Below are positions 785-30,672 of a DNA stretch of 34,091 bases, piece after piece (within the stretch, counting starts at the first letter, position 1; each line of letters opens with the position of its first letter). Origin of the DNA: Gemmatimonadaceae bacterium (GTDB lineage Bacteria; Gemmatimonadota; Gemmatimonadetes; Gemmatimonadales; Gemmatimonadaceae); the NCBI GenBank assembly GCA_014379355.1, contig JACMLX010000095.1, forward strand, positions 1 to 34,091, given 5' to 3'. The translations under genes and the position numbers were made by a program. Below the pieces are notes generated by a model, which was not told the DNA's origin, searched no databases, and saw nothing but the letters and a program-made list of their open reading frames with translations.

Positions 785-1725
785 CAGGCCGCCTGTAGCG
801 CGAGGATGGCATCGAGATTGGCCGACGTGCCGGCCGGCAGGACGGTGGCGTCGGGTAGAATTTTTCGGATGAGCCCGCTGAGCACGTGGCCCGGTCCAAG
901 CTCCACGAATGTGATCCCGGGATAGTCAGCAGCAATGTGACGGATCGTCTCGGTCCAGCGCACCGGCGCGGTCAGCTGATCACCGAGCAATTGCCGGGAA
1001 GCTTCGGCGCCCGACACCGGCAGGCCGGTGACGTTCGCATACACGGGAATGCGAGCATCGTGCATGTCGACATCGGCCAGCGCGGCTTCCCACCCCGGTT
1101 TGGCAGCATTCATCAGCGGGGAATGGAACGCGCCGCTGACGTGGAGCCGCATGCATTTTCTCGCGCCATGCTCCCTGGCCAGTTCCATCAGGCGTTCGAC
1201 GCCGGCGACTTCACCCGACACCACCACCTGACCCGGCGAATTGAAGTTGGCCGGCACGACGGCACCCGCTTCCCTCGTCGCGCGGTCGCACAGCTCGCGC
1301 ACGCGCACCGTGAGGTCTCCGAGAATCGCCGCCATGGCGCCGGGCCGCGCTTCCCCGGCCGCCTGCATCAGCTCACCGCGCGTGCGGACCAGCTTCACGG
1401 CCGTCGCGAAGTCGAAGGTGCCCGCCGACACGTGCGCGGTGAATTCACCGAGCGAATGTCCCGCGGCGCATCGCACGCGCGCGCCCAGTCGCTCGGCGAG
1501 CAGACGCCAGACCGCGACGCCATGCGTCAGCAATGCCGGTTGCGCGTTGTGCGTTTCCATCAGCGTCTCGGCTGGTCCATCGAAGCACAGCGACGAGAGC
1601 GAGAAACCGAGTGCTGCATCGGCAGCGCGAAACGTGTCGGCCGCGATCGGATACGCGTCGACGAGGTCCTTGCCCATGCCGGGCTTCTGCGACCCCTGTC
1701 CGGGAAATACGAGCGCGATATCCAT
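784..1725 (-). CDS. fabD: Malonyl-CoA:ACP transacylase FabD
   Basis: Transfers malonyl from CoA to acyl carrier protein, supplying the extender unit for fatty acid synthesis. The 313-residue protein starts MDIALVFPGQGSQ, matching the family N-terminus. The nucleophile elbow GHSLGE is at residues 89-94 with Ser91. The other active-site residues are Gln10, Arg116 (RTRGELM) and His201 (AFHSPLM), very close to E. coli FabD numbering. An upstream in-frame start at 1752 would add nine residues, but I prefer the ATG at 1725. It gives the family N-terminus and a TGATG overlap with the fabH stop, the same junction as between fabD and fabG. Nothing is missing or odd in the catalytic core. Confidence 0.96.
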   Translation of the reverse strand: MDIALVFPGQGSQKPGMGKDLVDAYPIAADTFRAADAALGFSLSSLCFDGPAETLMETHNAQPALLTHGVAVWRLLAERLGARVRCAAGHSLGEFTAHVSAGTFDFATAVKLVRTRGELMQAAGEARPGAMAAILGDLTVRVRELCDRATREAGAVVPANFNSPGQVVVSGEVAGVERLMELAREHGARKCMRLHVSGAFHSPLMNAAKPGWEAALADVDMHDARIPVYANVTGLPVSGAEASRQLLGDQLTAPVRWTETIRHIAADYPGITFVELGPGHVLSGLIRKILPDATVLPAGTSANLDAILALQAA

Positions 1726-2714
1726 CAGAGTCGCACCACCATCGAACCCCACGTGAAGCCGGCGCCGAAGGCGCAGAGCAGCACGGTGTCGCCGGTGCGC
1801 ACGCGACCGGACGTGATCGCCTCGTCGAGGGCGATGCCGATCGAGGCCGACGACGTATTCCCGAATCGATTGACGTTCACGTAGACCTTGTCCATGGGGA
1901 CATTCGCATGCTTGGCTGTCGCCTCGATGATGCGGATGTTCGCCTGGTGCGGGATGAGCAGGTCGATATCCTTGCCTGTCAGGCGCGCGCCGTCGAGCGC
2001 CCTGTCACAGGCCTCCGCCATCATGCGGACCGCGTGCTTGAAGACTTCGCGTCCGGCCATCTTCACGTAGCTCGATCGATCCTCGAGCACAGGCAGCGAG
2101 AAGGGATGCGCCGCGCCGCCGGACGGGCGCCACAACAGCTCGGCCAGCGCACCGTCGCTGCGCATGAACGCCGAGAGAATACCGCGCTTGCCGTCACCGC
2201 GACGCACGATCGCCGCACCCGCGCCGTCGCCGAACAGCACGGCGGTGCTGCGATCCTGCCAATCGGTGATCGCGCTCATCTTCTCCGACCCGATGACCAG
2301 CGCCGTCTCGATCGTACCGGCGGCGATCAGTCCCTCAGCCACGGTCAGCCCATACAGCCAGCCGCTGCACGCGGCCGACAGGTCGAAGGCGGTTGCACGC
2401 GTGGCACCGAGCGCGGCCTGGATGTCCACAGCTGTCGAGGGGAGCAGCCGATCGGGCGTCGCGGTGGAGAGGATGATCGCGTCGATTTCAGCGGACGTGA
2501 TGCCAGCCTTCGCCATCGCCTTGCGTGCGGCGTCCGCACCCATGCTGCACGTCGATTCACCGTCGCGCGCAATGTGGCGCTGCACGATGCCGGAGCGCTC
2601 GAAGATCCACTGGTGTGACGTGTCGATCCCGATGGCGGCAAAATCATCATTCGTCATGACGTGCCGCGGCACGCTGTATCCCGTGCCGGTCAGTGCCGCA
2701 TACGGACGTTTCAT
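1725..2714 (-). CDS. fabH: 3-oxoacyl-ACP synthase III FabH
   Basis: Beta-ketoacyl-ACP synthase III, which condenses an acyl-CoA starter with malonyl-ACP to begin fatty acid synthesis. The protein has 329 residues, normal for the family. The Cys-His-Asn triad is visible: Cys116 in DLSAACSGW, His256 in IPHQAN and Asn286 in FGNTSSAS. The glycine-rich end (CAFGAGFTWGSMVVR) is also typical. The start is an ATG with GGAG nine bases upstream. Sixty bases separate it from plsX, the only real gap inside the yceD-to-fabG cluster, so some independent control is possible. The starter preference (acetyl-CoA or branched acyl-CoA) cannot be told from the sequence by eye. Confidence 0.96.
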   Translation of the reverse strand: MKRPYAALTGTGYSVPRHVMTNDDFAAIGIDTSHQWIFERSGIVQRHIARDGESTCSMGADAARKAMAKAGITSAEIDAIILSTATPDRLLPSTAVDIQAALGATRATAFDLSAACSGWLYGLTVAEGLIAAGTIETALVIGSEKMSAITDWQDRSTAVLFGDGAGAAIVRRGDGKRGILSAFMRSDGALAELLWRPSGGAAHPFSLPVLEDRSSYVKMAGREVFKHAVRMMAEACDRALDGARLTGKDIDLLIPHQANIRIIEATAKHANVPMDKVYVNVNRFGNTSSASIGIALDEAITSGRVRTGDTVLLCAFGAGFTWGSMVVRL

Positions 2715-2740
2715 GTGAATGATCTCCGCGTGAGCCGACG

Positions 2741-2774
2741 CATCGTGGGCACGGTGCGATGGCGCCGCACGATG
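2741..2774 (-). other. Inverted repeat between plsX and fabH
   Basis: CATCGTG at 2741-2747 is repeated as its reverse complement CACGATG at 2768-2774, directly after the plsX stop codon, with a GC-rich 20-base interior. It could form a hairpin in the plsX-fabH mRNA. There is no U-tract after it on the minus strand, so I do not call it a terminator. It may be an mRNA processing or stability element, or chance. Confidence 0.25.
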
Positions 2775-3782
2775 TCAGTCCGTGACGCCGAGCCGACGCC
2801 CGATATGCTCGGACATCCGCGACTCGGCCGCACGAACGGCGACGTTGACGGCGTTCTTGATGGCACGCGGCGATGACTTGCCGTGCGCAATGATGCTCAC
2901 ACCCTGGACACCCAGCAGCGGCGCGCCGCCGTAGTTGGAGTAGTCGAGATGCGCGAGTCCCTTCATCAACAGGTGCGGATCCGCGTCGATCGATCGTGCA
3001 ATCATGCCGACGAGTGCCGGCGCCAGCGCCTCGTAGAACTTGAGCAGCACGTTGCCGGTGAAGCCGTCGCACACGACGACGTCGAAGGGGCCGCGGTCGC
3101 AGGTGCCGGCGGCGATGTCACGACCCTCGACATTGCCGATGAAATTCAGGTCGGTCTGCGAGAGCAACTGATGTGCACTCTTCACGGCGGCGTTGCCCTT
3201 CTCGGGCTCCTCGCCGATGCTGAGCAAGCCGATGGCGGGGTTTTCGCGGCCGAGAATGTCTTCGGCGTACACGAATCCGAGCCTCGCGAAGTGCACCAGC
3301 TCTTCCGGGCTGCAATCGACGTTGGCGCCGGCGTCCAGGACAACGACGGTATGCAGCGACGTGGGAAAGATCGAGGCGATCGCGGGCCGCTTGAGCGACC
3401 CGTGCAACCCGAGGATCTGCACCGATGCCGCCATCTGCGCGCCCGTGTTCCCGGCACTCACGAAGGCATCGGCGAGACCGTCGGCGTGGCGCCTGAGTCC
3501 GATCGCCATCGACGACTGCGGACGGCGCATGACGGCCGTCGGCTTGTCCGCCATGCCGATGATGTCGGCGGCGTCGATCACATCGACGCGCGAGCGATGA
3601 GCCGACAACGCCGAATACTCACCCGCGAGGGCGGCATCGAGCGCCGCGACGACATCTGCCTCACGGCCAATCAGTTGGATGCGGTGCTCGGCCCCAAGCT
3701 CAGCCAGCGCGAGGAGCGCGCCACCCACCGGTGCGATGGGGGCGAAATCGCCACCCATCGCATCCAGCGCAATCCGGGCCAA
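2775..3782 (-). CDS. plsX: Phosphate acyltransferase PlsX
   Basis: Converts acyl-ACP and phosphate to acyl-phosphate, which PlsY uses for glycerol-3-phosphate acylation; a peripheral membrane enzyme of phospholipid synthesis. The 335-residue protein has the family signature DAMGGD at residues 7-12, SAGNTGA at 109-115, then LLSIGEEPEKGN, VCDGFTGN and HGKSS blocks, so the full fold is present. The start codon is TTG, supported by the Shine-Dalgarno GGGAAGG seven bases upstream within the end of rpmF and by alignment with the usual MRIALDAMGGD start. Only three bases separate it from the rpmF stop. The order yceD-rpmF-plsX-fabH-fabD-fabG is the widely conserved lipid cluster. Confidence 0.95.
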   Translation of the reverse strand: MARIALDAMGGDFAPIAPVGGALLALAELGAEHRIQLIGREADVVAALDAALAGEYSALSAHRSRVDVIDAADIIGMADKPTAVMRRPQSSMAIGLRRHADGLADAFVSAGNTGAQMAASVQILGLHGSLKRPAIASIFPTSLHTVVVLDAGANVDCSPEELVHFARLGFVYAEDILGRENPAIGLLSIGEEPEKGNAAVKSAHQLLSQTDLNFIGNVEGRDIAAGTCDRGPFDVVVCDGFTGNVLLKFYEALAPALVGMIARSIDADPHLLMKGLAHLDYSNYGGAPLLGVQGVSIIAHGKSSPRAIKNAVNVAVRAAESRMSEHIGRRLGVTD

Positions 3783-4608: not shown

Positions 4609-5022
4609 TCAGGCGAGGTCAGGAAAGAAGAAGGCTGCCTCGACCGCAGCCGCCTCATCCGAGTCCGACGCGTGAATCGCATTCCGGCCCTTCGACTCGG
4701 CGTAGAGCTTCCGGACGGTGCCTTCAGCGGCCTCGGCTGGATCCGTCTTGCCGATGGCGTCGCGCAACTCGGCGACGGCGTTGGCCTTGTCCAGCACCAT
4801 TGGCATACAGGGACCGGAGGTCATGAATTCCACCAGTTCACCAAAGAAGCCGCGCTCCTTGTGGACCTCGTAGAATGTGCCGGCCTGCGCCGTGGTCAGG
4901 TGCATCACCCGGGCGGCCTTGAGCACGAAGCCCTGGGCTTCGAGATGCGCGATGATCTTGCCGGCCTTGCCTGCGCCGAACGCATCCGGCTTGATGATCG
5001 TGAGGGTACGGGTTCCAGCCAT
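4609..5022 (-). CDS. ndk: Nucleoside diphosphate kinase
   Basis: Transfers the gamma-phosphate of ATP to nucleoside diphosphates through a phosphohistidine, balancing NTP and dNTP pools. The 137-residue protein begins [15 protein letters not shown] with Lys11, and the active-site histidine is His117 in NAIHASDS (114-121). Most family members have HGSDS here; the Gly to Ala change is conservative. A longer reading from 5088 is possible, but the ATG at 5022 gives the family N-terminus and has GGAG eight bases upstream. It stands between the sucCD hairpin and the yceD promoter region, so it may be a single-gene unit. Its own promoter is not obvious. Confidence 0.95.
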
Positions 5023-5136: not shown

Positions 5137-6006
5137 TTACAGTCGAGCCTTGACCAGCTCCACGAAGTCCATCGGACGCTTGGCGATGCCCATGCCGGCT
5201 TTCTCGAACGCCTCGATCTTCTCGGCGGCCGTGCCTGCCGATCCCGAGATGATTGCGCCCGCGTGGCCCATCCGGCGCCCGGGCGGTGCCGTCTGGCCGG
5301 CGATGAAGCCGACCACCGGCTTGCTCATCTTCGTCCGAACGAATTCGGCCGCTTCCTGCTCGTCGGTGCCGCCGATTTCACCCATCATGGCGACGACCGT
5401 CGTCTGCGGATCCGCCTCGAACGCGGCCAACGCGTCGATGAAGTTGGTCCCGTTGATGGGGTCACCGCCGATGCCGACACAGGTGCTCTGCCCGATCCCG
5501 GCCTTCGTGAGCAGGTTCACGATTTCATACGTCAGCGTGCCTGACCGGCTGACGACGCCGACCGGTCCGGGCGCGCAGATGCGTCCCGGAATGATGCCGA
5601 CCTTCGACTGACCGGGTGTGATCAGGCCAGGGCAGTTCGGACCGAGCAGTCGCGCGCCCATCTCCTTCACATACGGATAGACCTTCGTCATGTCGAGCAC
5701 CGGCACGCCTTCGGTGATGCAGACGATCAGCTTGATGCCGGCGGCGGCCGCTTCCATCATCGCATCCGCCGCGAATGGTGGCGGCACGTAGATGACCGAG
5801 GTGTTCGCGCCGGTCGCGGCCACGGCCTGCGCAACCGTGTTGAAGATCGGCACCGTCTCCTCGAACTTCTGGCCGCCTTTACCCGGCGTGACGCCGCCGA
5901 CGACGGTCGTGCCGTACTCCATCATCTGCTTCGCGTGGAACGAGCCGTCACGACCCGTGATGCCCTGCACCAGCAGTGTGGTGGTGTTGTCGATGAAGAT
6001 GCTCAC
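5137..6006 (-). CDS. sucD: Succinyl-CoA synthetase alpha subunit
   Basis: Alpha subunit of succinyl-CoA ligase, which makes succinate and NTP from succinyl-CoA in the TCA cycle. The 289-residue protein has the CoA-binding Rossmann domain (GITGRDG at residues 15-21), the PNCPG loop at 123-127 and the ligase domain with the phosphohistidine His248 in MGHAGAI. Start and stop overlap with sucC as GTGA, so the start codon is GTG; coupling with the beta subunit suits a 1:1 complex. A large hairpin follows the stop. All catalytic features are present. Confidence 0.96.
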
Positions 6007-7145
6007 GCGGCGGCCCCGGTGGCGAGGGCGACCGCCTTCTGCACGGCTTCATCCATGTCGGACGAGGCGCTGAAGCCGTTCTCGGTCAGGATCTTCATCG
6101 CGACTTCTTCGTTGGTGCCCGTCAGGCGAATCACGATCGGCACGGTGAGCGGATTGGCCTTCGTCGCGGTGACGATGCCGTTCGCGACGTCATCGGTGCG
6201 TGTGATGCCGCCGAAGATGTTGAACAGGATCGCCTTCACGTTCTTGTCGGCCGTGATGATGCGGAGCGCGTTGACGACCTTCTCCGGATTCGACGAGCCG
6301 CCGATATCGAGGAAGTTCGCCGGGTCGCCGCCGTAATACTTGACGAGGTCCATCGTGGCCATCGCGAGACCCGCGCCATTGACGACGCAGCCCACATTGC
6401 CATCGAGCTTGATGAACGTGAGGTTCGCCTTGCGGGCCTCGACTTCGCTCGCTTCCTCGCTGCTTTCGTCGCGCAATGCCTCGATCGCTGGCAGGCGGTC
6501 GAGTTCATTGTCGTCGATCACCATCTTGCCATCGACGGCGACCACCGTGCCCGTCGGCGTGACGACGAGTGGATTGATCTCCGCGAGTGAGCACCCGCTC
6601 TCGATGAACGCCGAGTAGAGCTGCTGCATGATCTTCGCCGCCGCGCGCGCCTGCTTCACGTCCTCGTACAGGAAGAAGCCCATCTCCATCGCCTCGAACG
6701 TGCGCAGGCCGTAGCGCGGATCGACGGGATGGTACTTGATCTTCTCCGGCGTGGTCGCCGCGACTTCCTCGATGTCGATACCACCCGCAGCGCTGACCAT
6801 GAACACCGGCTTCTTCGTCGCACGATCGACGATGATGCCGACGTACGCCTCACTGCCGATGTCCTCGGCCACCGTCACGAGCACCTTGAGGACGGTGAGC
6901 CCCTTGATGTCCATGCCGAGGATCGCCGTGGCCTTCTCCTTCGCTGCGGCTGGCGTTGCACAGTACTTCACGCCGCCGGCCTTGCCGCGCCCACCGACGT
7001 GGACCTGCGCCTTCACCATCACCGGCACACCGTACTTCACCGCGAGTGCTTCAGCAGCGTCGGGTGTGGTTGCAATGTCGCCATCGGGAATCGGGACGCC
7101 GTGGCGCCTGAGGATCTCCTTGGCCTGATACTCATGTAGGTTCAC
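6003..7145 (-). CDS. sucC: Succinyl-CoA synthetase beta subunit
   Basis: Beta subunit of succinyl-CoA ligase, carrying the nucleotide-binding ATP-grasp domain. The 380-residue protein begins [12 protein letters not shown]. It has the glycine-rich loop GRGKAGG (residues 52-58), the metal-binding segment AEINPL (188-193), and the C-terminal flavodoxin-like domain with [14 protein letters not shown] (249-262) and [13 protein letters not shown] (309-321). The start is GTG at 7145 with GGAG five bases upstream. Whether ADP or GDP is used cannot be told by eye. It opens the sucCD unit after a 144-base gap containing two hairpins, so it probably has its own promoter, which I could not place. Confidence 0.96.
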
Positions 7146-7235
7146 ACACGCTCCATCTGCGATCGAGTGATTGCAGCGATTGTGACGTTGGAAAAGTCCC
7201 CGCCGCCGTGTGTGACGGACGCGAGGGTGGACGCA

Positions 7236-7281
7236 GCGCCCGCATCGGGCGCCGGAGGGCCGACGGCAAGCTAACCGTCGG
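7236..7281 (-). terminator. Two tandem hairpins after the UPF0182 gene
   Basis: CCGACGG (7260-7266) and CCGTCGG (7275-7281) form a perfect 7-base-pair stem with an 8-base loop, nine bases after the UPF0182 stop. GCGCCCG (7236-7242) and CGGGCGC (7246-7252) form a second perfect 7-base-pair stem just beyond. No U-tract follows. Together they are a plausible end for the long nuo-phosphomannomutase-UPF0182 transcript. The rest of the 7146-7289 gap holds only the sucC ribosome binding site. Confidence 0.4.
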
Positions 7282-7289
7282 TCGTGCGA

Positions 7290-9737
7290 TCATCGCTGGC
7301 TCGAGTCGCGAGGCACACCGAGGGCGCGGCCGAGCGCGTCGAACGAGGCACCGAACTCACTCCACGCACCACGCTGGAGGGCGTCGCGCATCTGCCGGTA
7401 CATGGCGGCAGCGGTGGAGCCCGGGACAGGCGCCCGGCCGCCATCTCGCCAACTGAGCACGGCCTCCGGAATCGTCTGCGCCACGCCCCGGTGCATGCCG
7501 TCGGTGAGCAGGACAGCAGCGATCTGCGTCGGTCGGCCATCACGAAGCGTGAAGTACGGCGTGAGGAATCGCGGTGCGCCGGCGCCAGGCAGCACACGCG
7601 TCGCACTGCGTCGCGCGCCGGTGAGACTGCCGGGCTGTCGCAACGAGTCCGACGTCTCCTGTGCCCCTCGGACCACGCCTTCATACGGCGCGCCGTCGGC
7701 GCTCGGCAGCCAGCGTGTGCGCCGATCCTCGCCTCCCGGCGCAAGCAGCACGCCACGCACGACACCGCGTGCGTCGATCGCCGCCGCCGTGAGGGCATAC
7801 GCACGTCGCGCCGGCAGCCAGACCGGCACATCCTCCTCCGTCGCAAAGACGCTGTCCGCCGCCACGCCGTGCACGAGGGAGAGTTCCGTGAGCGGGCCGC
7901 CGCGCCGCACGAATCCCGTCGTGTCTTCCTGCACCGCGCGCGACCCGAAATGGGCGGCGATGCCGCCTTCGAGCTGGAGTGCGTCGGCGCGCGGCGGCAG
8001 TGCGCGGCGCAGCGCTTCCGGCAACTCGGCGATCGGCAGCAGATGTCGCGCGAGACGCTCGAGCGGACGACGCGCGAGCAGCGGTGGATTGCGTTCCGTG
8101 ACGAGCGCGACGCGACCCGTGTGGGCGTTCACCAGTGCGGTGGCGGCAAACTGCGCCGCCGAGAACTCGTCGCCGGCGAGCATCACATGTTCGCTCAGCG
8201 GATACGTCGCGCTGACGGCGTACAGATCGAGCGCCCAGAGCAGCGAATCGGCGAAGACCAGCGGGACGACGTGGGCACCAGGGTGCAACGATGGCGCGAG
8301 CAGCGCGACGCGTTCACGCACGTCACGCACCGTGATGAGCACCGGTGACGGGCCTGGCGTCTCGCCGAACAGCAGGCGCGGATTCTGCTGATTCCATGCG
8401 TGTGCGAGTCGCGCCGACGTGCCGGCGATGGACGGCGCTGCGATGAGTCTCGCCCGATCGCTCACGATCGCGTAGCCGCGCCCGGAGTCGCTGACGACGA
8501 TCGGTGGCAATGTGCGGCCGGTACGCGCGGTCACGTTGCGCAACGGATTCTCGGACGTGATGTCGATCGGGATCGCGCGCCACGTCGGCAGCAGGCCCGG
8601 TGCGCGCAGCGCATCGAAGACTACCGCCTCGGGCATGCCGTTGCCTGCGTTCCACGCCAGCAGTGCGCCGAGCCGCCCCGGCGCGGTGTGCGGCACGGTG
8701 GCGCGATCCCACAGCGGCGTGGCCGGCAAGGATGCCGTGTCGCCCTGCGCGGCGGCGATCACCCGATCCGATTCGTACGCACGACGCGTATAGGAGGAAC
8801 CCGCGTCGAGATACCGACGCTCTCGCATGACCGTGTCACCACCGCCGTCGACGCTGTCCGCGAGCAACGGCATTCCCTGTCGCAGCAGGAGCGCCATCAG
8901 CAACACGGTCGTGACGGCTGCGATGCCGGCACGCGGTTGCCGGGACCACGCACTCCAGATCACCACACCGGCTGCGGCAAGGCAGATCACCTGCATCACG
9001 ATGCCACCGGGCAGGCCGACGCGATGATCGGCGAAGCCGAACGCACCCTCGCCGCCGGTACCGTGCACGAGGCGGTCGAAGCCGTCGATGCGGTAGCTCC
9101 ATGCGATCAACGCGAGGAGCATGGCACCCAGCACCGTGATGTGTCGGCGAGCGTGTCGCGTGACGCGCAGCGCTCGCCCATCGGTGCCGATGCCGCGCGT
9201 GAGCACATAGCCGACGATGGTCGCCATCGACATCACGGCGTGCGCCAGCAGCGCCCAGGTGTACGCCTGCAACTCGAACGGCAACCAGGTCGTCCAGAAG
9301 GCGAGGTCGTACTGGAAGTACGGGTCCGACTCCCCGAACGGTCGCGCATCGAGCACGTTCGCGAGCGGAGTCCAGTCGTCGATCGGTACGGTGAGCAGCA
9401 CGCCGATTGCGATCGCAACGGCCCACAACACGAGGGAAATCGTGCGATCGGGCACGGCACCATTGAACTCGAGGTTGCCGACGGTGCCCGGCACGACGAC
9501 ACTCACGAACGAGCGTCGAATGGCTTCGAGATGCGTGCGCATGACGAATGTCGCGAGCGTGCCGGCGGCCAGCTTGAGGGTCAGCGCGACGGTCGTCCGC
9601 CACCACCACACATCCCCGAATCCGAGCGCGTCGAACCAGGCATGATCGCCGATCAGCGCGCCCCATGCCCGCCCGATGGCCAGTACCAGCGCCACGCACA
9701 CGACGAGCGTCAGCAACCCGCGACGACGGATGATCAC
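7290..9737 (-). CDS. UPF0182 family large membrane protein
   Basis: Protein of about 815 residues that I assign to UPF0182 (COG1615), a family of large membrane proteins of unknown function. The first 300 or so residues hold about seven hydrophobic helices, the first preceded by IIRRRG. Family-like blocks are the aromatic WFDALGFGDVWWWRTT region, DPYFQYDLAFWTTWLPFEL, and YLDAGSSYTRRAYESDRV after the last helix. The remaining 500 or so residues look soluble and probably lie outside the cytoplasmic membrane. The C-terminus (MRDALQRGAWSEFGASFDAL) matches the family's closing motif. The protein is divergent overall. The start is uncertain: GTG at 9737, 19 bases after the phosphomannomutase stop, suits the positive-inside rule, but no Shine-Dalgarno is visible; GTG at 9815 would overlap the upstream gene. 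It is the last gene of the nuo run. Confidence 0.75.
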   Translation of the reverse strand: MIIRRRGLLTLVVCVALVLAIGRAWGALIGDHAWFDALGFGDVWWWRTTVALTLKLAAGTLATFVMRTHLEAIRRSFVSVVVPGTVGNLEFNGAVPDRTISLVLWAVAIAIGVLLTVPIDDWTPLANVLDARPFGESDPYFQYDLAFWTTWLPFELQAYTWALLAHAVMSMATIVGYVLTRGIGTDGRALRVTRHARRHITVLGAMLLALIAWSYRIDGFDRLVHGTGGEGAFGFADHRVGLPGGIVMQVICLAAAGVVIWSAWSRQPRAGIAAVTTVLLMALLLRQGMPLLADSVDGGGDTVMRERRYLDAGSSYTRRAYESDRVIAAAQGDTASLPATPLWDRATVPHTAPGRLGALLAWNAGNGMPEAVVFDALRAPGLLPTWRAIPIDITSENPLRNVTARTGRTLPPIVVSDSGRGYAIVSDRARLIAAPSIAGTSARLAHAWNQQNPRLLFGETPGPSPVLITVRDVRERVALLAPSLHPGAHVVPLVFADSLLWALDLYAVSATYPLSEHVMLAGDEFSAAQFAATALVNAHTGRVALVTERNPPLLARRPLERLARHLLPIAELPEALRRALPPRADALQLEGGIAAHFGSRAVQEDTTGFVRRGGPLTELSLVHGVAADSVFATEEDVPVWLPARRAYALTAAAIDARGVVRGVLLAPGGEDRRTRWLPSADGAPYEGVVRGAQETSDSLRQPGSLTGARRSATRVLPGAGAPRFLTPYFTLRDGRPTQIAAVLLTDGMHRGVAQTIPEAVLSWRDGGRAPVPGSTAAAMYRQMRDALQRGAWSEFGASFDALGRALGVPRDSSQR

Positions 9738-9756
9738 GGGCGGTGACGGCGCACGA

Positions 9757-11121
9757 TCAGACGGTGACGCCTTGCGTGCGCATCCATGCGTAGAACTCCG
9801 CACGGATCTCGTCACGACGCTCCGCGGTCAGCGCCTCGAACCGGCACACGACGATCGGCTGCGTGTTCGACGCACGAATGAGGCCCCATCCGTCGCCGAA
9901 GAGCACACGCGCACCGTCGACATCGATGACGTCGTGCGTCTTCCGGAAATGCGCCGTGGCCGCCTCGACCAGCTCGAACTTGCGCTCATCGCCGCAGTCG
10001 ATGCGCAATTCGGGTGTGCTGAAGTACGAGGGCACATCGGCGAGCAGGTCGCGGACACTGCCGGCGCTGGACGACACGATCCGCAGGATGCGCGCAGCGG
10101 CATAGAGCGCGTCGTCATGCCCGTAGAAGCCCTCGGTGAAGAACATGTGCCCCGACATCTCGCCGGCGACTGGCGCATGCAACTCCTTCATCTTGTCCTT
10201 GATGAGTGAGTGGCCCGTCTTCCACATCACCGGCACACCGCCCGCTTTCGTGATCGCATCCGGCAGTGCCTGCGAACATTTCACGTCGAAGATGATCGCC
10301 TGGCCGCCACCGGTGCGCGCGAACACATCACGCGCGTACAACAGCAGCAGGTAGTCACCCCAGATGATCGTGCCGTTCGCGTCCACGATACCGATACGAT
10401 CGGCGTCACCATCGAACGCGATGCCGATGTCAGCGCCTTGCTGCTGCACGGCACCGATCAGGTCGAGCAGGTTCTCCTCGACGGTCGGATCGGGATGATG
10501 GTTCGGAAACGTGCCATCGCTTTCGCAGAAGAGATACGTCGCATCGAGGTTCATGCGCGCGAAGATCGCCTCGGTGAGCGGCCCACCGGCACCGTTGCCG
10601 GCGTCGAGCACCACCTTCAAGCGCCGCGGCAAGGGCCCCGTGCGCTCCACGATGTCGTCGGCGTACGCTGCGTTCAGGTTCTCGGCGCGCACCGAGCCGA
10701 CATGTGCAGTCGGTGGGGCGTCGAGCAGCTCGCGCAGTCGCTGGATGCCGCCGCCGTGCAACGAGCCAGTGCCGACGCAGAGCTTGAAGCCGTTGAACTC
10801 CGGGGGGTTGTGTGAACCCGTGATCTGGATGCCGCCGGCCACCGGCAGGTGATGCAACGACCAGTAGAGCAGGGGCGTGGGACCGACGCCGATGTCGATG
10901 ACGTCGCGTCCGCGACTCGTCAGGCCCTGCACCAACGCCTCTCGCAGTGCCGTACCGCTCGGCCGGTTGTCGCGGCCGACGGCAACCGGGCCCTCGATCC
11001 CACGCTCATCGAGCAGCGCCGCATACGCCTGACCGATGCCTTCAGCCGCCTCGCTGGTCAGGTCGTCTCCGACGACGCCACGAATGTCATACTGCCGAAA
11101 GATGCCAGCGGCGATGGTCAT
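9757..11121 (-). CDS. Phosphomannomutase/phosphoglucomutase
   Basis: Alpha-D-phosphohexomutase of the AlgC/ManB type, interconverting mannose (or glucose) 6- and 1-phosphate for sugar-nucleotide and surface polysaccharide synthesis. The 454-residue protein has all four family sites: the phosphoserine loop ITGSHNP with Ser103, the metal loop DGDADR (237-242), the sugar-binding loop GEMSGH (320-325) and the phosphate-binding loop RASNTQP (416-422). Glu-Met-Ser-Gly-His is the form seen in bifunctional PMM/PGM enzymes, but substrate choice cannot be settled here. The start codon overlaps the nuoN stop as ATGA, so it is translated with the complex I operon, an unexpected partner. Longer in-frame upstream sequence is nuoN in another frame. 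Confidence 0.93.
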   Translation of the reverse strand: MTIAAGIFRQYDIRGVVGDDLTSEAAEGIGQAYAALLDERGIEGPVAVGRDNRPSGTALREALVQGLTSRGRDVIDIGVGPTPLLYWSLHHLPVAGGIQITGSHNPPEFNGFKLCVGTGSLHGGGIQRLRELLDAPPTAHVGSVRAENLNAAYADDIVERTGPLPRRLKVVLDAGNGAGGPLTEAIFARMNLDATYLFCESDGTFPNHHPDPTVEENLLDLIGAVQQQGADIGIAFDGDADRIGIVDANGTIIWGDYLLLLYARDVFARTGGGQAIIFDVKCSQALPDAITKAGGVPVMWKTGHSLIKDKMKELHAPVAGEMSGHMFFTEGFYGHDDALYAAARILRIVSSSAGSVRDLLADVPSYFSTPELRIDCGDERKFELVEAATAHFRKTHDVIDVDGARVLFGDGWGLIRASNTQPIVVCRFEALTAERRDEIRAEFYAWMRTQGVTV

Positions 11122-12677
11122 GGAAACACGGCCTGGGAATCGAACGGGGCCGACGCCTGCACCTGTGATGCGGCCGCCGGTCGTCCTGGAGTCATTGGGA
11201 GAGTGCTGGCCTTTGCCCAGCCAACGGCGGGTGACGGATACACGCCAAGCGCCAGCAGCAGTACGGCAGCCACGGCGATCACGCCACCGGTCATGCGCGC
11301 GTCGACCACCCGCGCCGGCGTCGCGTCCTCGACCGGCGGTTTCATGAACATCGTCGCGACGACCGAGAGGTAGTAGCCGGCCGACACGAGGCTCGCGAGC
11401 ACGAGGATGATCGCCAGCTTGAGTTGCGGTGCGGGAGACGACAACGCGGCACGCAATACGTACCACTTCGCGAAGAAACCCATCCCGCCGGCGACCGGGA
11501 ACCCCATCAACGAGAGCATGAACACGGCCATCGCGGTCGCGAGTGCCGGTCGCGTGCGCGACAGGCCGGCCAGGTCACTCATCCGCGTGCGTTTCTCGAT
11601 GCCGCCGGAGACGACGCTCAGCACCGCGTACGACCCGACCGTCGCCAGCGTGTAGGCGAGCGCGTAGAACACGATCGCGGCCACGCCGTTGGCCGAGTGA
11701 CTGGTGATGGCGACCAGGAGATAGCCGGCATGCGCGATGCTCGAATACGCGAGCATGCGCTTCACGTTCTGCTGCGCCAGCGCGAGCACGTTGCCGACGA
11801 CCATCGTGACGGCGGCCAGGACCCACGCGGCATAGTGCCACGACGCGTACGCCGGTCCGAGTCCGTCGAGCAACAACCGGGCGAACGCGGCGAAGGCGGC
11901 CGTCTTCACCCCGGCGGCCATGAAGGACGTGTACGGTGTCGGTGCACCCTCGTACACATCCGGCGTCCACATGTGGAACGGGACTGCCGCCACCTTGAAC
12001 GAGAAGCCGACGAACAACAGCGCCAGTCCGCCGATCAGCAGCGGATCCCGGCCAAGATCATGCTGCGTGATCGCCGCTGCCATCTCGCTCAGGTTGGTCG
12101 TGCCGGTGGCGCCGTAGAGCAATGCCATGCCATACAGGAGGAAGCCGGTCGAGAACGCGCCGAGCAGGAAATATTTGAGCGCAGCTTCGGCTGAACCGGC
12201 GCGGCTGCGATCGAGGCCGGTGAGGATGTAGATCGCGAGCGACATGACTTCGATGCCAAGAAAGATCAGCATCAGGTCGCGCGCGCCGACGAGGAGCAGC
12301 ATGCCGGCGGCGGAGAACAGGACGAGCGCCGGTGGTTCAGGCGCCGCGAGTGCTGCACCTTCGTTGTACTCCATCGCCATCACCAGCGTACCGATCACGC
12401 CGAGCAGGATGACGGCGACGGACGCCCAGCGGAACCCGTCGTACGCGAGCGGGCCGCTCGCCGCACCGAGTGGTGGCGATTGATTCGCCAGCATCGCCGC
12501 TGACGCGGCTGCGAGCAACGCCACGACGATTGCGAGCAGATGGGCGCGGCGTGTCGTCTCCACACTCTCCGCCGCGAACACACCGAACAACAACACGCAC
12601 ATTCCACCGATCGAGACGATCAGTTCCGGCAGCAGCAGGGTGCCGAGGTCAAGACCGCCGAATACGAAGCCGTTCAT
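11118..12677 (-). CDS. nuoN: NADH-quinone oxidoreductase subunit N
   Basis: Antiporter-like membrane subunit of complex I, forming one of the proton channels in the membrane arm. The 519-residue hydrophobic protein has about fourteen helices and the key charged residues of the central axis: Glu143 (GIEVMSLAIY), Lys228 (FSFKVAAVPFHMW), Lys258 and Lys404 (FFAKWYV). The motif PFHMWTPDVYEGAP is the family signature. The C-terminal 35 residues or so after the last helix are Ala/Pro-rich and poorly conserved. Its ATG overlaps the nuoM stop (ATGA), and its own stop overlaps the phosphomannomutase start. Confidence 0.95.
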   Translation of the reverse strand: MNGFVFGGLDLGTLLLPELIVSIGGMCVLLFGVFAAESVETTRRAHLLAIVVALLAAASAAMLANQSPPLGAASGPLAYDGFRWASVAVILLGVIGTLVMAMEYNEGAALAAPEPPALVLFSAAGMLLLVGARDLMLIFLGIEVMSLAIYILTGLDRSRAGSAEAALKYFLLGAFSTGFLLYGMALLYGATGTTNLSEMAAAITQHDLGRDPLLIGGLALLFVGFSFKVAAVPFHMWTPDVYEGAPTPYTSFMAAGVKTAAFAAFARLLLDGLGPAYASWHYAAWVLAAVTMVVGNVLALAQQNVKRMLAYSSIAHAGYLLVAITSHSANGVAAIVFYALAYTLATVGSYAVLSVVSGGIEKRTRMSDLAGLSRTRPALATAMAVFMLSLMGFPVAGGMGFFAKWYVLRAALSSPAPQLKLAIILVLASLVSAGYYLSVVATMFMKPPVEDATPARVVDARMTGGVIAVAAVLLLALGVYPSPAVGWAKASTLPMTPGRPAAASQVQASAPFDSQAVFP

Positions 12678-14230
12678 CGCGCGGCATCCTCGACCGCACT
12701 CGCCGTGGGCGGTGCCGTGATCGCCGACATGTTCACGCGCGTCACGAGTGACGCGACCGAGTCATCGAGTCGGTCGAGGACGGGTGCCGGTGCGAGACCG
12801 AGACCGATGATCGCGAGGACGAATGCGGCCATCACGCCGGCTTCGAGTCCGTTCAGGTCGCGTGCGACCGGGGCGCCGTCCGGGCGCTGGCCGAACAGCA
12901 TGCGCTGCACGGCCCAGAGCAGGTAGGCCGCTGCGAGGATCACACCGATCGTGGCCAGCAGCACGAGCACCGGGAAATGGGTGAACGAGCCGATCAGCAC
13001 GAGGAATTCGCCGACAAAGCCATTCGTGCCGGGCAGGCCGGCGTTCGCCAGTGCGAACAGCACCACCAATGCGCCGAACATCGGCATGTCCTTCGCCAGG
13101 CCGCCGAGTGACTGAAAGCGATCGTCGCTGATCCGCTTGCGCAGCATGCCCAGCAGCAGGAACATGCCGCCCGTCGTGATGCCGGCATTCACCATCACGA
13201 TCACCGCACCCTGCAACGATTCAGCCGTGAACGCACTGATGCCAACCACCACGAACCCGAGATGTGCGATGGACGCGTACGAGATCACGCGCCGGAAATC
13301 CGGCTGGACGAGTGCGACGAGCGAACCGTACAGCACGCCGACGACACCGAGCGACGCGAGAATCATCCGTGTCACCGGATGCAGCGCAGCCGAGGGAAAG
13401 AGCGGATATGCGAGGACCATCAACCCGTACGTGCCGACCTTGATGCCCAGTGCGACGGCCGCGATCGGCGGTCCCTCGCTTTGCGCGTCAGGCAGCCAGG
13501 TGTGAAACGGGATCAGCGCACTCTTGACGAGGAACGCGGCCGCGAACGCGAAGAAACAGAAGGCCTGCGCCGTCATGCTCATCGGCTGGTTCGTCGCCAT
13601 CGTGCGCACCGTGTCATACGTCGTGCCACCGGCGGCCGACGCCACGACGATGACCGCGACGAGCATCAGCAACGAACCGAGCATGGTGTAGATGAAGAAC
13701 GTCGTGCCAGCCGCGGGTCCGCGTCCTGATCCCCAGACACCGATCAGGAAGTAGAGCGGCACGAGCATCAATTCCCAGCACAGATAGAACAGCAGCAGGT
13801 CGGCCGCGAGAAAGATGCCGAGTATGCCAGCGGTCAGCAGCAGGATGAGTGCGTAGTACGACACGGCGCGATGCGTGATCGCCGCACGATCCGTCGCGAT
13901 CACACTGAGCAACATGAGCCACGCCGTCAGCACGATCATCGGCAGCGAAATGCCCGTCGCCGCGAAGCGAATCCGTGCGCCGAATTCGTCGATCCACGGA
14001 TAGTCCACCTGCTCGGTCGATCCGTTCGGCACGACCAGCCAGAGGGCGAGTGTCAGGATCGCCGTCACGGACAGCAGACCAATGGTGATGGTGCGTGCCA
14101 GGCGTGCGTCGGTGTCGCCAGCGGCACGGGGCAGCAACCAGACGGCAATCGAGCCGACGAGCGGCAGCGCGAAGATCCCAGGGAGCAGCCAGCCCGGGGC
14201 AAAGCCGATCGCTGCCAACATGGTGTTCAC
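12674..14230 (-). CDS. nuoM: NADH-quinone oxidoreductase subunit M
   Basis: Second antiporter-like subunit of complex I. The 518-residue protein carries Glu153 (LCWELMLVPLYF), Lys236 (FLVKSALIPFHTWLPDA), Lys264 and Glu408 (GEFLVL), matching the essential E. coli NuoM residues Glu144, Lys234, Lys265 and Glu407. One usual residue is changed: in the helix with VNAGITTGG the customary histidine (His348 of E. coli, in an AHG context) is Ala349. The start is GTG at 14230, giving a GTGA overlap with nuoL and a GAGG site six bases upstream; the ATG at 14221, three codons later, would be too far from that site. Confidence 0.95.
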   Translation of the reverse strand: MNTMLAAIGFAPGWLLPGIFALPLVGSIAVWLLPRAAGDTDARLARTITIGLLSVTAILTLALWLVVPNGSTEQVDYPWIDEFGARIRFAATGISLPMIVLTAWLMLLSVIATDRAAITHRAVSYYALILLLTAGILGIFLAADLLLFYLCWELMLVPLYFLIGVWGSGRGPAAGTTFFIYTMLGSLLMLVAVIVVASAAGGTTYDTVRTMATNQPMSMTAQAFCFFAFAAAFLVKSALIPFHTWLPDAQSEGPPIAAVALGIKVGTYGLMVLAYPLFPSAALHPVTRMILASLGVVGVLYGSLVALVQPDFRRVISYASIAHLGFVVVGISAFTAESLQGAVIVMVNAGITTGGMFLLLGMLRKRISDDRFQSLGGLAKDMPMFGALVVLFALANAGLPGTNGFVGEFLVLIGSFTHFPVLVLLATIGVILAAAYLLWAVQRMLFGQRPDGAPVARDLNGLEAGVMAAFVLAIIGLGLAPAPVLDRLDDSVASLVTRVNMSAITAPPTASAVEDAAR

Positions 14231-16290
14231 TGTCCGCCTCGCATCGTGAACACACCGATCAGAGCGACCGCACCGAGCGCGATCGCCCACACATAGCTCC
14301 CCGCGAATCCAACCTGTGCACGGGATGCGATGGATGAGATGACGCGGAAGAGCTGCGCACTGCCCTGCACCAGCACCCCGTTGATCAAGCCGAGGTCGAG
14401 GCCACGCCACAACACCTTGCGCGACGCGGCCACCGTGGGGCCGACGACGCCACGCTCGATCGCCGCGTCGACGAAGTAGTCGTTCGCGAGCACGAGACCG
14501 ATGCCCGTTTCCGCAGGGGCGGCGTCCTTCGTGGTGAGCGAGGCCGGCTTGAGCAGGACGAACGCCGTTGCGATACCGGCAACGGCGACGGCCACGGCGA
14601 TGCCGATCAGGAGGTATTCGGTGTTGTGCGCGAGATGACCCGTGCCAGCGAGTAATGTCGTTGCGCTGCCAGTGATCGGTGCGAGCCACGTCTCGAGCAG
14701 ACCAGTGCGCCCGACCGGCAACACCTCGGGAAGCTGCAACCAGCCGCCGATGAGCGTCAGCGCACCGAGTGCGACCAGCGGACCGCGCAGCATCCAGGGC
14801 GCGTCATGCACCTCCGCTTCCACATCGGCGCCCGAGCGAAACGTGCCGTGAAAGGAATAGCGCATCAAGCGAGTCATGTAGATCGCAGTCAGGAACGCCG
14901 TCACCACCGCGAGTGCGTATGCGAACCAGAGCACCACACGTCCAGGAACCGGACCGAGCGACGATTCAGCCAGCGGAGATTCCATGGCGCGTTCGGCGAT
15001 CGCACTCAGGATCGCGTCCTTGGAGAAGAATCCGGCCAACGGCGGGATTCCGGCGATCGCGAGTGTGGCAATCCACATCAGCGTTCCGGTGGCCGGCATC
15101 CTCCTCATCAGGCCACCCATGTTGCGCATGTCCTGTGCATCGTCGTGCCGATGCGTCGCGTGCAAGGCGTGATGCATGCCGTGAATCACCGCGCCGGCGC
15201 CGAGGAACAACAGCGCCTTGAAGAATGCATGCGTGACGAGGTGGAACATCGCCGCCGTGTACGCCCCCGCGCCGACGGCCACGAACATGTAGCCCAACTG
15301 CGAAATGGTGGAATACGCAAGCACCTTCTTGATGTCCAATTGCTTGAGGCCGACCGTCGCCGCCCACAGCGCCGTCAGCGCCCCGACGAGCACGATGACG
15401 AGGCAGGCGACCGGAGCCGCCGAAAACAGCGTCGCATTCCGCACGATGAGATAGATGCCTGCCGTGACCATCGTGGCAGCATGGATCAGCGCCGACACCG
15501 GCGTCGGGCCGGCCATCGCGTCGGGCAGCCAGACATACAACGGGAGTTGCGCACTCTTGCCGGCGCAGCCAAGGAACATGAACAGGCAGATCGCCGTCAC
15601 CAGCGGTGTCGACAGCACCGCGTGCTGTCGTGCGATCTCGGCGAAATCGAGCGACCCGATGTTCGCGAACAGGATGAACATCGCCAGCAGCAGGCCGAAG
15701 TCACCGATGCGATTGACCACGAACGCCTTCTTGCCCGCCACCGCGTTCGCCGTGTCTCCGAACCAGAAACCGATCAGCAGGTATGACGCGAGTCCGACGC
15801 CCTCCCAGCCGATGAACAACACCGGCAGGTTCGCGCCCATCACGAGCATCAGCATGAACCCGACGAACAGGTTCAGGTACGCGAAATAGCGCGCGAACCC
15901 CGCGTCGTCGGCCATGTAGCCGACGCTGTAGATGTGAATCAGGCTGCCGACGCCGGTGATGACGAGCATCATCAGCACGCTCAGCCGATCCACGCGCAGT
16001 GCCCAGTCGACGCTGAACGAGCCCGCGTGCATCCAGACGCCGAGTGTGGAGTCGATGGCCGTGTCGTCGCCACCGAGTTGCATCGCGAGTGCGATGGTCA
16101 GCGCGAAGGCGAGCACCATCACACCCACGCCGACCAGGCTGACGATACCCCGTCGACCCGCCGGCGTCGACGCGACGCGTTCGCCACGCCAGGACGGCAC
16201 CAGCGAGAACAACCCGTTCACCACGAAGCCAGCGAACGGCAACAGGGGAATGAGCCAGAGGACCAACGAAGCGGACGAAGAGGAGAACAT
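14227..16290 (-). CDS. nuoL: NADH-quinone oxidoreductase subunit L
   Basis: Largest antiporter-like subunit of complex I, with the long lateral helix along the membrane arm. The 687-residue protein shows Glu163 (GWEGVGLASYLLIGFWF), the NRIGDFG motif (193-199), Lys245 (GKSAQLPLYVWLPDAM) and the following GPTPVSALIHAATMVTAG block. After the AVIHGMHH segment there is an extra run of about ten residues, rich in histidine, before DMRNMGGL, compared with E. coli NuoL. The ATG lies 12 bases after the nuoK stop with no good Shine-Dalgarno. The end overlaps nuoM as GTGA. Confidence 0.95.
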   Translation of the reverse strand: MFSSSSASLVLWLIPLLPFAGFVVNGLFSLVPSWRGERVASTPAGRRGIVSLVGVGVMVLAFALTIALAMQLGGDDTAIDSTLGVWMHAGSFSVDWALRVDRLSVLMMLVITGVGSLIHIYSVGYMADDAGFARYFAYLNLFVGFMLMLVMGANLPVLFIGWEGVGLASYLLIGFWFGDTANAVAGKKAFVVNRIGDFGLLLAMFILFANIGSLDFAEIARQHAVLSTPLVTAICLFMFLGCAGKSAQLPLYVWLPDAMAGPTPVSALIHAATMVTAGIYLIVRNATLFSAAPVACLVIVLVGALTALWAATVGLKQLDIKKVLAYSTISQLGYMFVAVGAGAYTAAMFHLVTHAFFKALLFLGAGAVIHGMHHALHATHRHDDAQDMRNMGGLMRRMPATGTLMWIATLAIAGIPPLAGFFSKDAILSAIAERAMESPLAESSLGPVPGRVVLWFAYALAVVTAFLTAIYMTRLMRYSFHGTFRSGADVEAEVHDAPWMLRGPLVALGALTLIGGWLQLPEVLPVGRTGLLETWLAPITGSATTLLAGTGHLAHNTEYLLIGIAVAVAVAGIATAFVLLKPASLTTKDAAPAETGIGLVLANDYFVDAAIERGVVGPTVAASRKVLWRGLDLGLINGVLVQGSAQLFRVISSIASRAQVGFAGSYVWAIALGAVALIGVFTMRGGQ
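14237..14240 (-). promoter_or_regulatory. Ribosome binding site deciding the nuoM GTG start
   Basis: GAGG on the minus strand, six bases before the GTG at 14230-14228 and fifteen before the ATG at 14221-14219. The spacing favours the GTG, which also gives the GTGA overlap with the nuoL stop. Confidence 0.45.
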
Positions 16291-16302
16291 GCGTGTGTGC
16301 GT

Positions 16303-16596
16303 CTAACCCCTGAGCAGCCGAATGCGGCCGAGATCGACCGTGCGATAATGCCGGAACACACTGATCACGATCGCGAGGCCGACCGCGGCCTCGGCGGCGG
16401 CGACGGTCATCACGAAGAGGACGAAGACCTGGCCGCCGACGCCATGTAGTCGCGAGAGCGCCACGAACGACAAGTTCACTGCGTTGAGCATCAACTCGAC
16501 GCACATGAACAGGATCAGCGCATTGCGGCGCGTGAGCACGCCAAGCACACCGATGCTGAAGAGGATGGCCGAGACGAACAGTGCTTCACGGATCAT
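16303..16596 (-). CDS. nuoK: NADH-quinone oxidoreductase subunit K
   Basis: Small membrane subunit of complex I with three transmembrane helices, part of the proton path next to NuoJ. The 97-residue protein has both conserved membrane glutamates: Glu34 in [11 protein letters not shown] and Glu69 in [12 protein letters not shown], equivalent to Glu36 and Glu72 in E. coli. The length is normal. Its ATG overlaps the nuoJ stop as ATGA. Confidence 0.96.
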
Positions 16597-17117
16597 GTGC
16601 GCGCCTCGCCAGCGACCTTGCCGCGCTTGGCGAGAACGACGGCGCCGACCACTGCCACCAGCAGCAGCAGCGACGTCACCTCGAATGCCACCAGGTTGTC
16701 GGTGAACAGCGAGTTTGCGATCGGCGCGAGTGCATCGGCATCGACGGGCCTGAGACCGTCCACCGGAAACGGCTGCGCCCGCACCACATACAGAAGCTCC
16801 GCCGCCAGCGCCCCGGCGATCGCCGATGCCGCCACGGCCGCGCCGACACTCCGTCGCTCCTTCACGTCATTCTCGCCGAGGTTGAGCAGCATCACGACGA
16901 AGACGAAGACCACCATGATCGCACCCGCGTACACGAGTACCTGTGCGGCGCCGAGGAAATGCGCGCCGAGCATCACGTACAATGCGGCCAGTGCAAACAT
17001 CACGTTGACGAGCCAGAGCGCGGCAGCGACGGGATTGCGTCGCGTGACCATCGCCATTGCCGCGACGATCGCAAGAATCGAGAAGAGCCAGAAGTGAATC
17101 GTGTAGTACGTGCCCAT
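16593..17117 (-). CDS. nuoJ: NADH-quinone oxidoreductase subunit J
   Basis: Membrane subunit of complex I with five predicted helices. The 174-residue protein begins [13 protein letters not shown] and contains the conserved third helix region [19 protein letters not shown], where a pi-bulge is known in the family. Two ATG codons stand in tandem; I chose the second (17117) because it makes a TGATG junction with nuoI like others in this operon. The ATG at 17120 is equally possible and adds one residue. The loop after the fourth helix ([15 protein letters not shown]) is long and variable. Confidence 0.94.
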
Positions 17118-17614
17118 CATTCCCCGGCGGGATCGGCGGGATCCCACATTTCACAGACCGGGTGTGTCTGCGCCGTGAGGCGCTCCAGGTCGTACACGAA
17201 GCCGTCGCGCGAATATTCCGCGTTCTCGTAGTGGCGCCCGACGTGAATGGCCTCTTCTGGGCAGACTTCCTGGCAGTAGCCGCAGAAAATGCAGCGGAAT
17301 TCGTCGATCTCGAACACGAGTGGAAAGCGATTGCCGTGTTCGTCCTCGCCGGGCACGAGCTTGATGCAGTTGGCGGGGCACACGGTCGGGCAGAGACCGC
17401 AGGCGACACACTTGGCCTTGCCGTCTTCCGTGGTGAGCATGCGATGCGTGCCGCGCCACCGCTTCGACAGCGCCTCCGTTTCCTCGGGGTACTGCGTCGT
17501 GACCTTGTGCGGATCGACGAGGTGCTTGAACGTGTGCGCAAGCCCGGACAGCGTCGCACGCACGTAGCTGACCTGCTCCACGGGCCGGTCCATGACCTTC
17601 ACATTGATCGCCAT
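17117..17614 (-). CDS. nuoI: NADH-quinone oxidoreductase subunit I
   Basis: Ferredoxin-like subunit of complex I that carries clusters N6a and N6b and passes electrons towards NuoB. The 165-residue protein has two CxxCxxCxxxCP motifs: Cys69, 72, 75 and 79, and Cys108, 111, 114 and 118. The N-terminal amphipathic segment that binds the membrane arm is present (LAHTFKHLVDPHKVTTQYP). The start at 17614 gives a TGATG overlap with nuoH; further upstream in-frame sequence is nuoH in another frame. The C-terminal tail after the second cluster is of ordinary length. Confidence 0.96.
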   Translation of the reverse strand: MAINVKVMDRPVEQVSYVRATLSGLAHTFKHLVDPHKVTTQYPEETEALSKRWRGTHRMLTTEDGKAKCVACGLCPTVCPANCIKLVPGEDEHGNRFPLVFEIDEFRCIFCGYCQEVCPEEAIHVGRHYENAEYSRDGFVYDLERLTAQTHPVCEMWDPADPAGE

Positions 17615-20471: not shown

Positions 20472-20472
20472 C

Positions 20473-23632: not shown

Positions 23633-23635
23633 GGC

Positions 23636-25346: not shown

Positions 25347-25362
25347 TCGTGGTCACACGCTC

Positions 25363-28858: not shown

Positions 28859-28873
28859 ATGCTGTGCGCCCGA

Positions 28874-29533: not shown

Positions 29534-29570
29534 CGAGCAGGGTGCTCCAGAACTGGGTCAGGAAACTTTC

Positions 29571-29604: not shown

Positions 29605-29615
29605 TCGAAGAACGT

Positions 29616-30545: not shown

Positions 30546-30577
30546 TTCGTCAATCGATCTGAGAGGTATGCGTCAGG

Positions 30578-30655: not shown

Positions 30656-30672
30656 CGACGGGCATCGTGCGC

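Follow-up and report, generated by a model that had tools for sequence, protein, structure and literature searches.

Among mycobacterial proteins, we take Rv3193c to be a member of the UPF0182 family. In published work, Rv3193c came up in transposon sequencing (Tn-seq) together with genes for division and the wall (PMC8093794), MSMEG_1959 is listed among cell-envelope proteins (PMC10433963), and a UPF0182 protein forms a band of the membrane proteome of Syntrophomonas wolfei; the passages on S. wolfei, Leptospirillum and mycobacteria give no function for UPF0182. The UPF0182 gene in a spermidine cluster of Leptospirillum (PMC7231039) resembles the case described here in that, according to the portion available, one genomic context is kept in many organisms, but its neighbors are speH, speE and an odc-like gene, and that portion names none of the genes treated below. 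Here, we describe a diverged UPF0182 gene that directly follows a phosphomannomutase (PMM) gene in a Gemmatimonadaceae bacterium (GenBank assembly GCA_014379355.1, contig JACMLX010000095.1); the window analyzed is this whole contig of 34,091 nucleotides, and all its coordinates are in window numbering. As in a complex I (nuo) operon, the window's nuo genes fall in the expected families, but sdh-mdh lie on one side of them and PMM-UPF0182-sucCD on the other, and many genomes of the class share this arrangement. Literature searches returned no title on the gene order nuoN-PMM-UPF0182, and the words "gene order" are absent from the main text of a paper on Gemmatimonadota energy genes (PMC9426454), although a search listing counts one occurrence.

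Conservation of the gene order

The neighborhood was examined at 86 loci (the block loci), 79 of which were chosen by a UPF0182 match and 7 of which came from 20 regions chosen by a PMM match; wherever a genome carried two UPF0182 copies, adjacency counts refer to the lower-scoring one, and most of the genomes are drafts, many of them probably metagenome assemblies, in which absences may be gaps. All 60 genomes sampled from the window's order (the window's own and 59 relatives, assigned to it by kinship label) contained PF03699, the UPF0182 family, above the cut-off, with a lower-scoring copy in each of the 59 relatives and a high-scoring long copy also listed in 29 of the 60 (27 at full length and 2 with pieces). 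Around the lower-scoring copy of these relatives, PMM abutted UPF0182 in 59 of 59 regions, and nuoN adjoined PMM in 57 (contigs ended in the other two, L063 and L092). In 57 regions, sucC came after UPF0182, either directly or behind a carbamate kinase gene; contigs ended in the remaining two (L046 and L082). An automatic count gave 56 for nuoN-PMM, since sorting placed a long nuoM frame behind nuoN in L054, where direct reading shows the two genes in order. An unannotated frame of 562 amino acids lies between UPF0182 and sucC in L059 (genome G024).

In a sample of the phylum, 244 of 298 genomes matched the short-form profile A1 (29 of 53 copies of at least 560 amino acids plus the window protein), which also catches long copies; no genome listed in this sample is labelled beyond "same class," and the listing omits 34. 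Outside the order, PMM abutted UPF0182 in 19 of 20 further regions selected by a UPF0182 match (the exception being L114), with nuoN before PMM in 15, and among the 20 regions selected by a PMM match, half of whose genomes (10) had no UPF0182 match in the 298-genome sample, UPF0182 was present in 7, always beside PMM, with nuoN before PMM in 3. Combined over ten families of one class, PMM abutted UPF0182 at 85 of the 86 loci (in L098 as its C-terminal half only) and nuoN preceded PMM at 75; contigs ended at PMM in 6 of the other 11 (L063, L092, L107, L132, L133 and L134), other genes took the place of nuoN in L097, L098, L102 and L125, and L114 had no PMM. These figures are used in place of the 82 and 74 of an automatic recount because the genes concerned were seen to be adjacent on reading, three loci (L074, L080 and L134) having over-extended frames and one (L079) a broken PMM frame, which put them outside the distance limits of the recount. 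The gene order is class-wide, from family f1 to f10, and since it is kept across ten families, it is conserved far beyond chance. The order nuoN-PMM-UPF0182 is thus old, and the stable association considered by an earlier, sequence-only reading of the window was borne out, PMM-UPF0182 adjacency being by no means confined to this one genome. The phyla sampled for the block were Gemmatimonadota and that of genome G309 (record titled Latescibacterota); in the latter, 33 of 64 genomes matched A1, all 20 copies read, from 18 genomes, scored higher on the long profile, and the stretches fetched (4 to 18 kb) contained no PMM, nuo or suc match.

Spacing distinguished the two junctions of the trio. Gene starts were placed by profile, so that single gap values may be off, and gaps outside -200 to 1000 bases were excluded from the medians, the 85 loci behind each of the first two medians being different sets. 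The PMM-UPF0182 gap had a median of 2 bases (25 or fewer in 73 loci, and an overlap of -4 or -1 in 18), compared with 40 bases for nuoN-PMM (overlap of -4 or -1 in 9) and, over 79 loci, 66 bases between UPF0182 and the next gene. In the window itself, nuoN, PMM and UPF0182 are consecutive at 12677-7290 on the minus strand, with an ATGA overlap and then a 19-base gap, exactly as the sequence-only reading had described. The ATGA overlap of nuoN and PMM is, however, a minority trait, recurring in the congeners L036 and L037 and in few others, and the tie to NuoN, which that reading had made the key link, is the looser of the two.

The same reading had the two genes appended to the complex I operon, which is inexact, as the pair is embedded between nuo and sucCD within a wider block. 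Upstream of nuo, the window has mdh and sdhCAB, with carA further up; in 8 of 15 stretches fetched upstream in other genomes (including L257, where G101 has its distant nuo locus), nuo was preceded by carA, mdh or sdh, and the other 7 had nuo alone, a few nuo genes, or nothing. Downstream, the order sucCD, ndk, plsX, fabH was kept as far as the stretches extend. In 30 of the 57 order loci showing sucC, a gene of about 310 to 330 amino acids lies between UPF0182 and sucC and is carbamate-kinase-like, the one copy scanned scoring 339.5 bits on TIGR00746, below the cut-off of 358, and 287 bits on PRK12352.1, above the cut-off of 266. This gene (e.g., L056:5625-6614), which often has a 4-base overlap with sucC, is absent from the window.

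Divergence of the block UPF0182 copy

The window protein matched PF03699 at 173.2 bits (gathering cut-off, 27), with its best stretch at residues 9-328; the family given by the sequence-only reading is therefore right, although the copy is strongly diverged and lacks the canonical core motifs. Its match is not full length, covering positions 2-325 and, in a second part, 499-612 of the 770-position model, while a block copy from another family (L125) matched positions 3-770 at 971 bits. On PRK00068.1 of NCBIfam (UPF0182-type hypothetical protein), the window protein reached 151.4 bits against a cut-off of 995. Neither THGxG nor FTPRxK, motifs picked from an alignment of canonical copies and a pattern search, was present in it; THGxG occurred in 116 of 116 long rows (some of them duplicated) versus 6 of 86 block copies, none of those 6 in the window's order, and FTPRxK in 94 of 116 versus 0 of 86. 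A profile-profile comparison nevertheless aligned the block copy with the canonical long family (PF03699/COG1615) over the N-terminal region of seven helices and over parts of the periplasmic domain (probability 100, E value of 9e-61, identity of 18%). The long rows have a median of 923 amino acids, compared with 815 for the window protein. In L040, L042 and L066, the block copy is just 571 to 581 amino acids long, with the membrane region kept and much of the periplasmic domain missing.

A membrane domain with many helices followed by a large extracytoplasmic domain, a trait of UPF0182 members, is also predicted for the window protein. Seven hydrophobic segments lie within its first 292 residues, and a weak eighth one (residues 477-495) lies within the globular domain. 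Because the N-terminus and loops 2-3, 4-5 and 6-7 are positively charged, the N-terminus should be inside, according to the positive-inside rule, and the large C-terminal domain outside. The AlphaFold2 model, made from the 30-row alignment, had a predicted local distance difference test (pLDDT) score of 85 and a predicted template modeling (pTM) score of 0.84.

Phylogenetic analysis (quick method, LG+G4; 92 rows chosen from the 202 collected plus the window) separated all 49 block copies from the 43 long copies by a single branch, with a Shimodaira-Hasegawa approximate likelihood ratio test (SH-aLRT) value of 99, in a tree whose root is not firm, as many rows are of unusual composition and the outgroup is not one clade. 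Branching inside the block side mostly followed the family codes. Three block copies (L125, L133 and L134, of families f8 and f10) are canonical, scoring 894 to 960 bits on the long profile, 17 from f4 to f7 and f9 are intermediate (490 to 672 bits), and the other 66 of the 86 score higher on the short profile, which derives from copies of the window's order and is favored there. The block copies thus make up one clade, with the canonical form in two families, the short form in the window's order and a gradation in between, and the block of central-metabolism genes is old and vertically inherited. Such a series at one locus shows which parts of UPF0182 were dispensable and which were retained. 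In the window's order, the core conserved among canonical members is gone from the protein, and its biochemical activity has therefore probably changed, with the membrane domain kept.

Canonical copies in the phylum, in contrast to the block copy, showed no fixed neighborhood. Among the surroundings of 80 canonical long copies (on contigs that are often short, with some records titled as other phyla), PMM, sucC and sucD were near one (L145) and a fabH-like gene was near three others, and the commonest neighbor cluster, obtained by single linkage over mixed positions, comprised 12 of the 80. L145 carries both forms on one chromosome, where about 6 kb separates the block UPF0182 (916-3516) from the canonical long copy at 9626-12718. 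At seven loci (L187, L194, L199, L203, L209, L212 and L214), canonical UPF0182 of 47 to 48% identity occurs in records whose titles name Patescibacteria or a related candidate phylum, which may reflect transfer or misbinning.

Comparison with two congeners gave ratios of nonsynonymous to synonymous substitution rates (dN/dS) of 0.154 and 0.206 for UPF0182, similar to those of nuoN (0.131 and 0.168) and nuoH (0.154 and 0.251) and higher than those of PMM (0.085 and 0.115) and sucC (0.038 and 0.059). In the window's genus, UPF0182 is thus fast evolving yet constrained, under purifying selection.

Possible roles of the PMM-UPF0182 pair

The window PMM aligned over residues 2-444 with the AlgC-type PMM/phosphoglucomutase (PGM) of Pseudomonas aeruginosa (structure 2fkf) at 409 bits, including the loops TGSHNPP, DGDxDR, GEMSGH and RASNTxP, which are presumably catalytic. 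With these loops and all four PGM_PMM domains present, it belongs to the AlgC type, and its 501.7 bits fell below the NCBIfam PgmG equivalog cut-off of 600; it differs from the P. aeruginosa enzyme in sitting between complex I and succinyl-CoA synthetase genes. It was the only AlgC-type enzyme found in the assembly. Because the two further PGM_PMM matches are GlmM and alpha-PGM, the gene likely encodes the cell's phosphomannomutase, provided that the 89.6% complete assembly misses no other.

Among the readings considered, we tentatively rank an envelope role of the block UPF0182 together with PMM as the most likely. PMM and the diverged UPF0182 form a closely spaced pair inside the central-metabolism block, in which UPF0182, as a seven-helix protein of the inner membrane with a large domain in the periplasm, would help to build or maintain the envelope and would use or sense products of the PMM-fed hexose-phosphate branch (mannose-1-phosphate or glucose-1-phosphate). 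Located among nuo, sdh, sucCD, ndk and plsX-fabH, it would be expressed in step with energy supply and growth, and it would not be part of complex I. A more elaborate scenario, which we consider doubtful, is that UPF0182 was fixed at one locus early in the class and remodeled in place, keeping the membrane domain and shedding the canonical periplasmic core, and is now a dedicated membrane partner of PMM that couples the supply of envelope sugars to the expression of genes for respiration and the tricarboxylic acid (TCA) cycle. A long-kept close link to one enzyme narrows the hypotheses for UPF0182 and is a testable lead rather than proof; the sequence-only reading had also offered the association as a lead to function, which holds for the stable link to PMM but not for NuoN as the key partner.

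In favor of the envelope reading are the near-constant adjacency and close spacing of PMM and UPF0182, the single clade of block copies, their constraint, the predicted topology, the lack of fixed neighbors around canonical copies, the status of PMM as the only AlgC-type enzyme found, and the mycobacterial hints cited above. It rests mainly on the partner and the topology, as any trend of UPF0182 with PF22640 or LpxC was weak at best. ManC-type (PF22640) and LpxC matches are present in the window's genome and were surveyed in 28 hand-picked genomes, 15 with UPF0182 (G090 and G107 being counted there by score, their block unread) and 13 without it at the locus, some of these genomes belonging to shared families. 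PF22640 was above the cut-off in 13 of 15 versus 6 of 13, a weak trend among related genomes with scores near the cut-off. Owing to these shared families and near-cut-off scores, co-occurrence with PF22640 or LpxC was not used as proof for or against an envelope role. LpxC was not found in G143 and was represented by a 64-position piece only in G148, both of genus g86 and both without block UPF0182, and was nearly whole in the other 26 of the 28.

Several observations weigh against the envelope reading. At an E value of 0.001 or lower, PF22640 was found in 14 of 15 genomes with UPF0182 and in 12 of 13 without, and LpxC was full length in 15 of 15 and 11 of 13, respectively. UPF0182 had the highest dN of the compared genes with both congeners. 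A search of PDB sequences with A1 returned nothing at an E value of 1, and fold searches of PDB with the whole model and with domain 318-815 gave best E values of 0.011 and 0.0016 and top TM-scores of at most 0.20; VIA-align Z values reached no more than 7.1 with the whole model (in its helical part) and 4.9 with the domain, and all these results were taken as no match. In 13 of the 20 PMM-selected genomes, PMM was retained with no UPF0182 at the locus, 10 of these 13 having been picked because the 298-genome sample showed no UPF0182 match. The converse was also seen, as L098 (G101, one contig) keeps only the C-terminal half of PMM beside UPF0182 and L114 (G282) retains UPF0182 although the 17 kb read there contain no PMM. 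Moreover, the carbamate kinase-sucC junction, with a median of -4 in 30 order loci, is equally close, so that close spacing is not special to PMM-UPF0182. The many unrelated housekeeping genes in the block make adjacency alone weak evidence for a common pathway. In both L098 and L114, UPF0182 remains before sucC or carbamate kinase-sucC.

The outlasting of whole PMM by UPF0182 and the equally close carbamate kinase junction slightly lowered the envelope reading and slightly raised the next most likely one, a real possibility in which PMM and UPF0182 have no specific partnership and are passengers in a frozen old block that gives strong growth-linked expression, with UPF0182 wearing down and being dropped. 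The mixture of carA, mdh, sdh, nuo, sucCD, ndk, plsX and fabH in the block is consistent with this, as are the fastest divergence, motif loss and shrinkage (L040, L042 and L066) of UPF0182. Of the 13 PMM-centered loci without UPF0182, 9 have sucC immediately after PMM or separated from it only by carbamate kinase, and nuoN lies directly before PMM in 9; UPF0182 is missing from an otherwise similar block. The constraint on UPF0182 in the window's genus argues against mere passage, however, as do its presence in every one of the 60 genomes sampled from the order (one more family genome, G084, gave no match) and its close spacing to PMM in nearly all loci. That the block copy is a functionless, degenerate remnant is very improbable: the conserved core has been lost and several lineages are without a copy, but the matched stretches of the 60 order genomes contain no stop (a single internal stop is marked in three matches of the 298-genome sample, G024, G034 and G142), and the low dN/dS and well-formed predicted fold likewise speak against a remnant.

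We consider it unlikely that UPF0182 is a respiratory accessory that aids the assembly or regulation of complex I or quinone-linked enzymes, as the nearby nuo and sdh genes might suggest. The prevalence of nuoN before the pair, with more than half of the exceptions being contig ends, and the carA, mdh or sdh genes upstream of nuo agree with such a role, but PMM separates nuoN from UPF0182, and the constant co-occurrence and co-location with nuo expected of a complex I subunit or accessory protein were not found. PMM-UPF0182 is kept with nuo elsewhere in three genomes, the NuoN matches being on other contigs in G079 and G227 and the nuo genes lying about 130 kb away in G101; in a fourth (G121, 95% complete), a family search found no NuoN. 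Together with the nine nuoN-PMM loci that have no UPF0182, these genomes show that UPF0182 is separable from complex I, which goes against the tie to NuoN.

Layout of the window and transcript signals

The features of the window are listed in Table 1. The family names given by the sequence-only reading were right, with NuoN above a curated cut-off, four domains in PMM/PGM and 173 bits for UPF0182; its interval, 7290-11121, covers PMM and UPF0182, whereas nuoN itself falls outside. The gene at 2775-3782 is presumably plsX.

Table 1. Features of the 34,091-nucleotide window
Feature	Coordinates	Strand	Basis or score
nuoN, complex I subunit N	11118-12677	minus	TIGR01770, 410.4 bits (cut-off, 332.6)
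PMM/PGM, AlgC-type phosphohexomutase, 454 amino acids	9757-11121	minus	PGM_PMM I-IV domains
ATGA common to nuoN stop and PMM start	11118-11121	minus	sequence
19-base spacer, PMM stop to UPF0182 GTG start	9738-9756	minus	sequence
UPF0182, diverged, 815 amino acids, GTG start at 9737	7290-9737	minus	PF03699
GC-rich hairpins without T-run, 3' of UPF0182	7197-7281	minus	fold
sucC, succinyl-CoA synthetase beta	6003-7145	minus	Pfam ATP-grasp_2, Ligase_CoA
sucD, succinyl-CoA synthetase alpha	5137-6006	minus	Pfam CoA_binding, Ligase_CoA
ndk, nucleoside diphosphate kinase	4609-5022	minus	Pfam NDK
nuoM to nuoB, remaining complex I genes	12674-25356	minus	Pfam, NCBIfam; outer limits are open reading frame limits
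sdhB, sdhA, sdhC, mdh (upstream block part)	26169-30545	minus	Pfam
sdhC	28874-29533	minus	TIGR02046, 172 bits
mdh	29616-30545	minus	Pfam
fabH (downstream block part)	1725-2714	minus	Pfam
plsX (presumed; downstream block part)	2775-3782	minus	same position in relatives

The sequence-only reading had the genes ending at tandem hairpins. Such hairpins do exist 3' of UPF0182 (at about 7281-7260, 7254-7234 and 7226-7197), but a transcript end there is unproven, as they are GC-rich with a T-run in none, and an intrinsic terminator scan of 6950-11300 returned 0 sites (shuffled sequences average 1.4); on these grounds, the hairpins were not used to mark a transcript end. A promoter scan, uninformative in so GC-rich a genome, likewise returned 0 sites. 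The sucC start lies 144 bases beyond UPF0182, on the same (minus) strand, and the block continues. At the other end of the window (28874-34037), sdhC, mdh and carA lie 5' of nuo, and central-metabolism genes on one strand occupy most of the contig.

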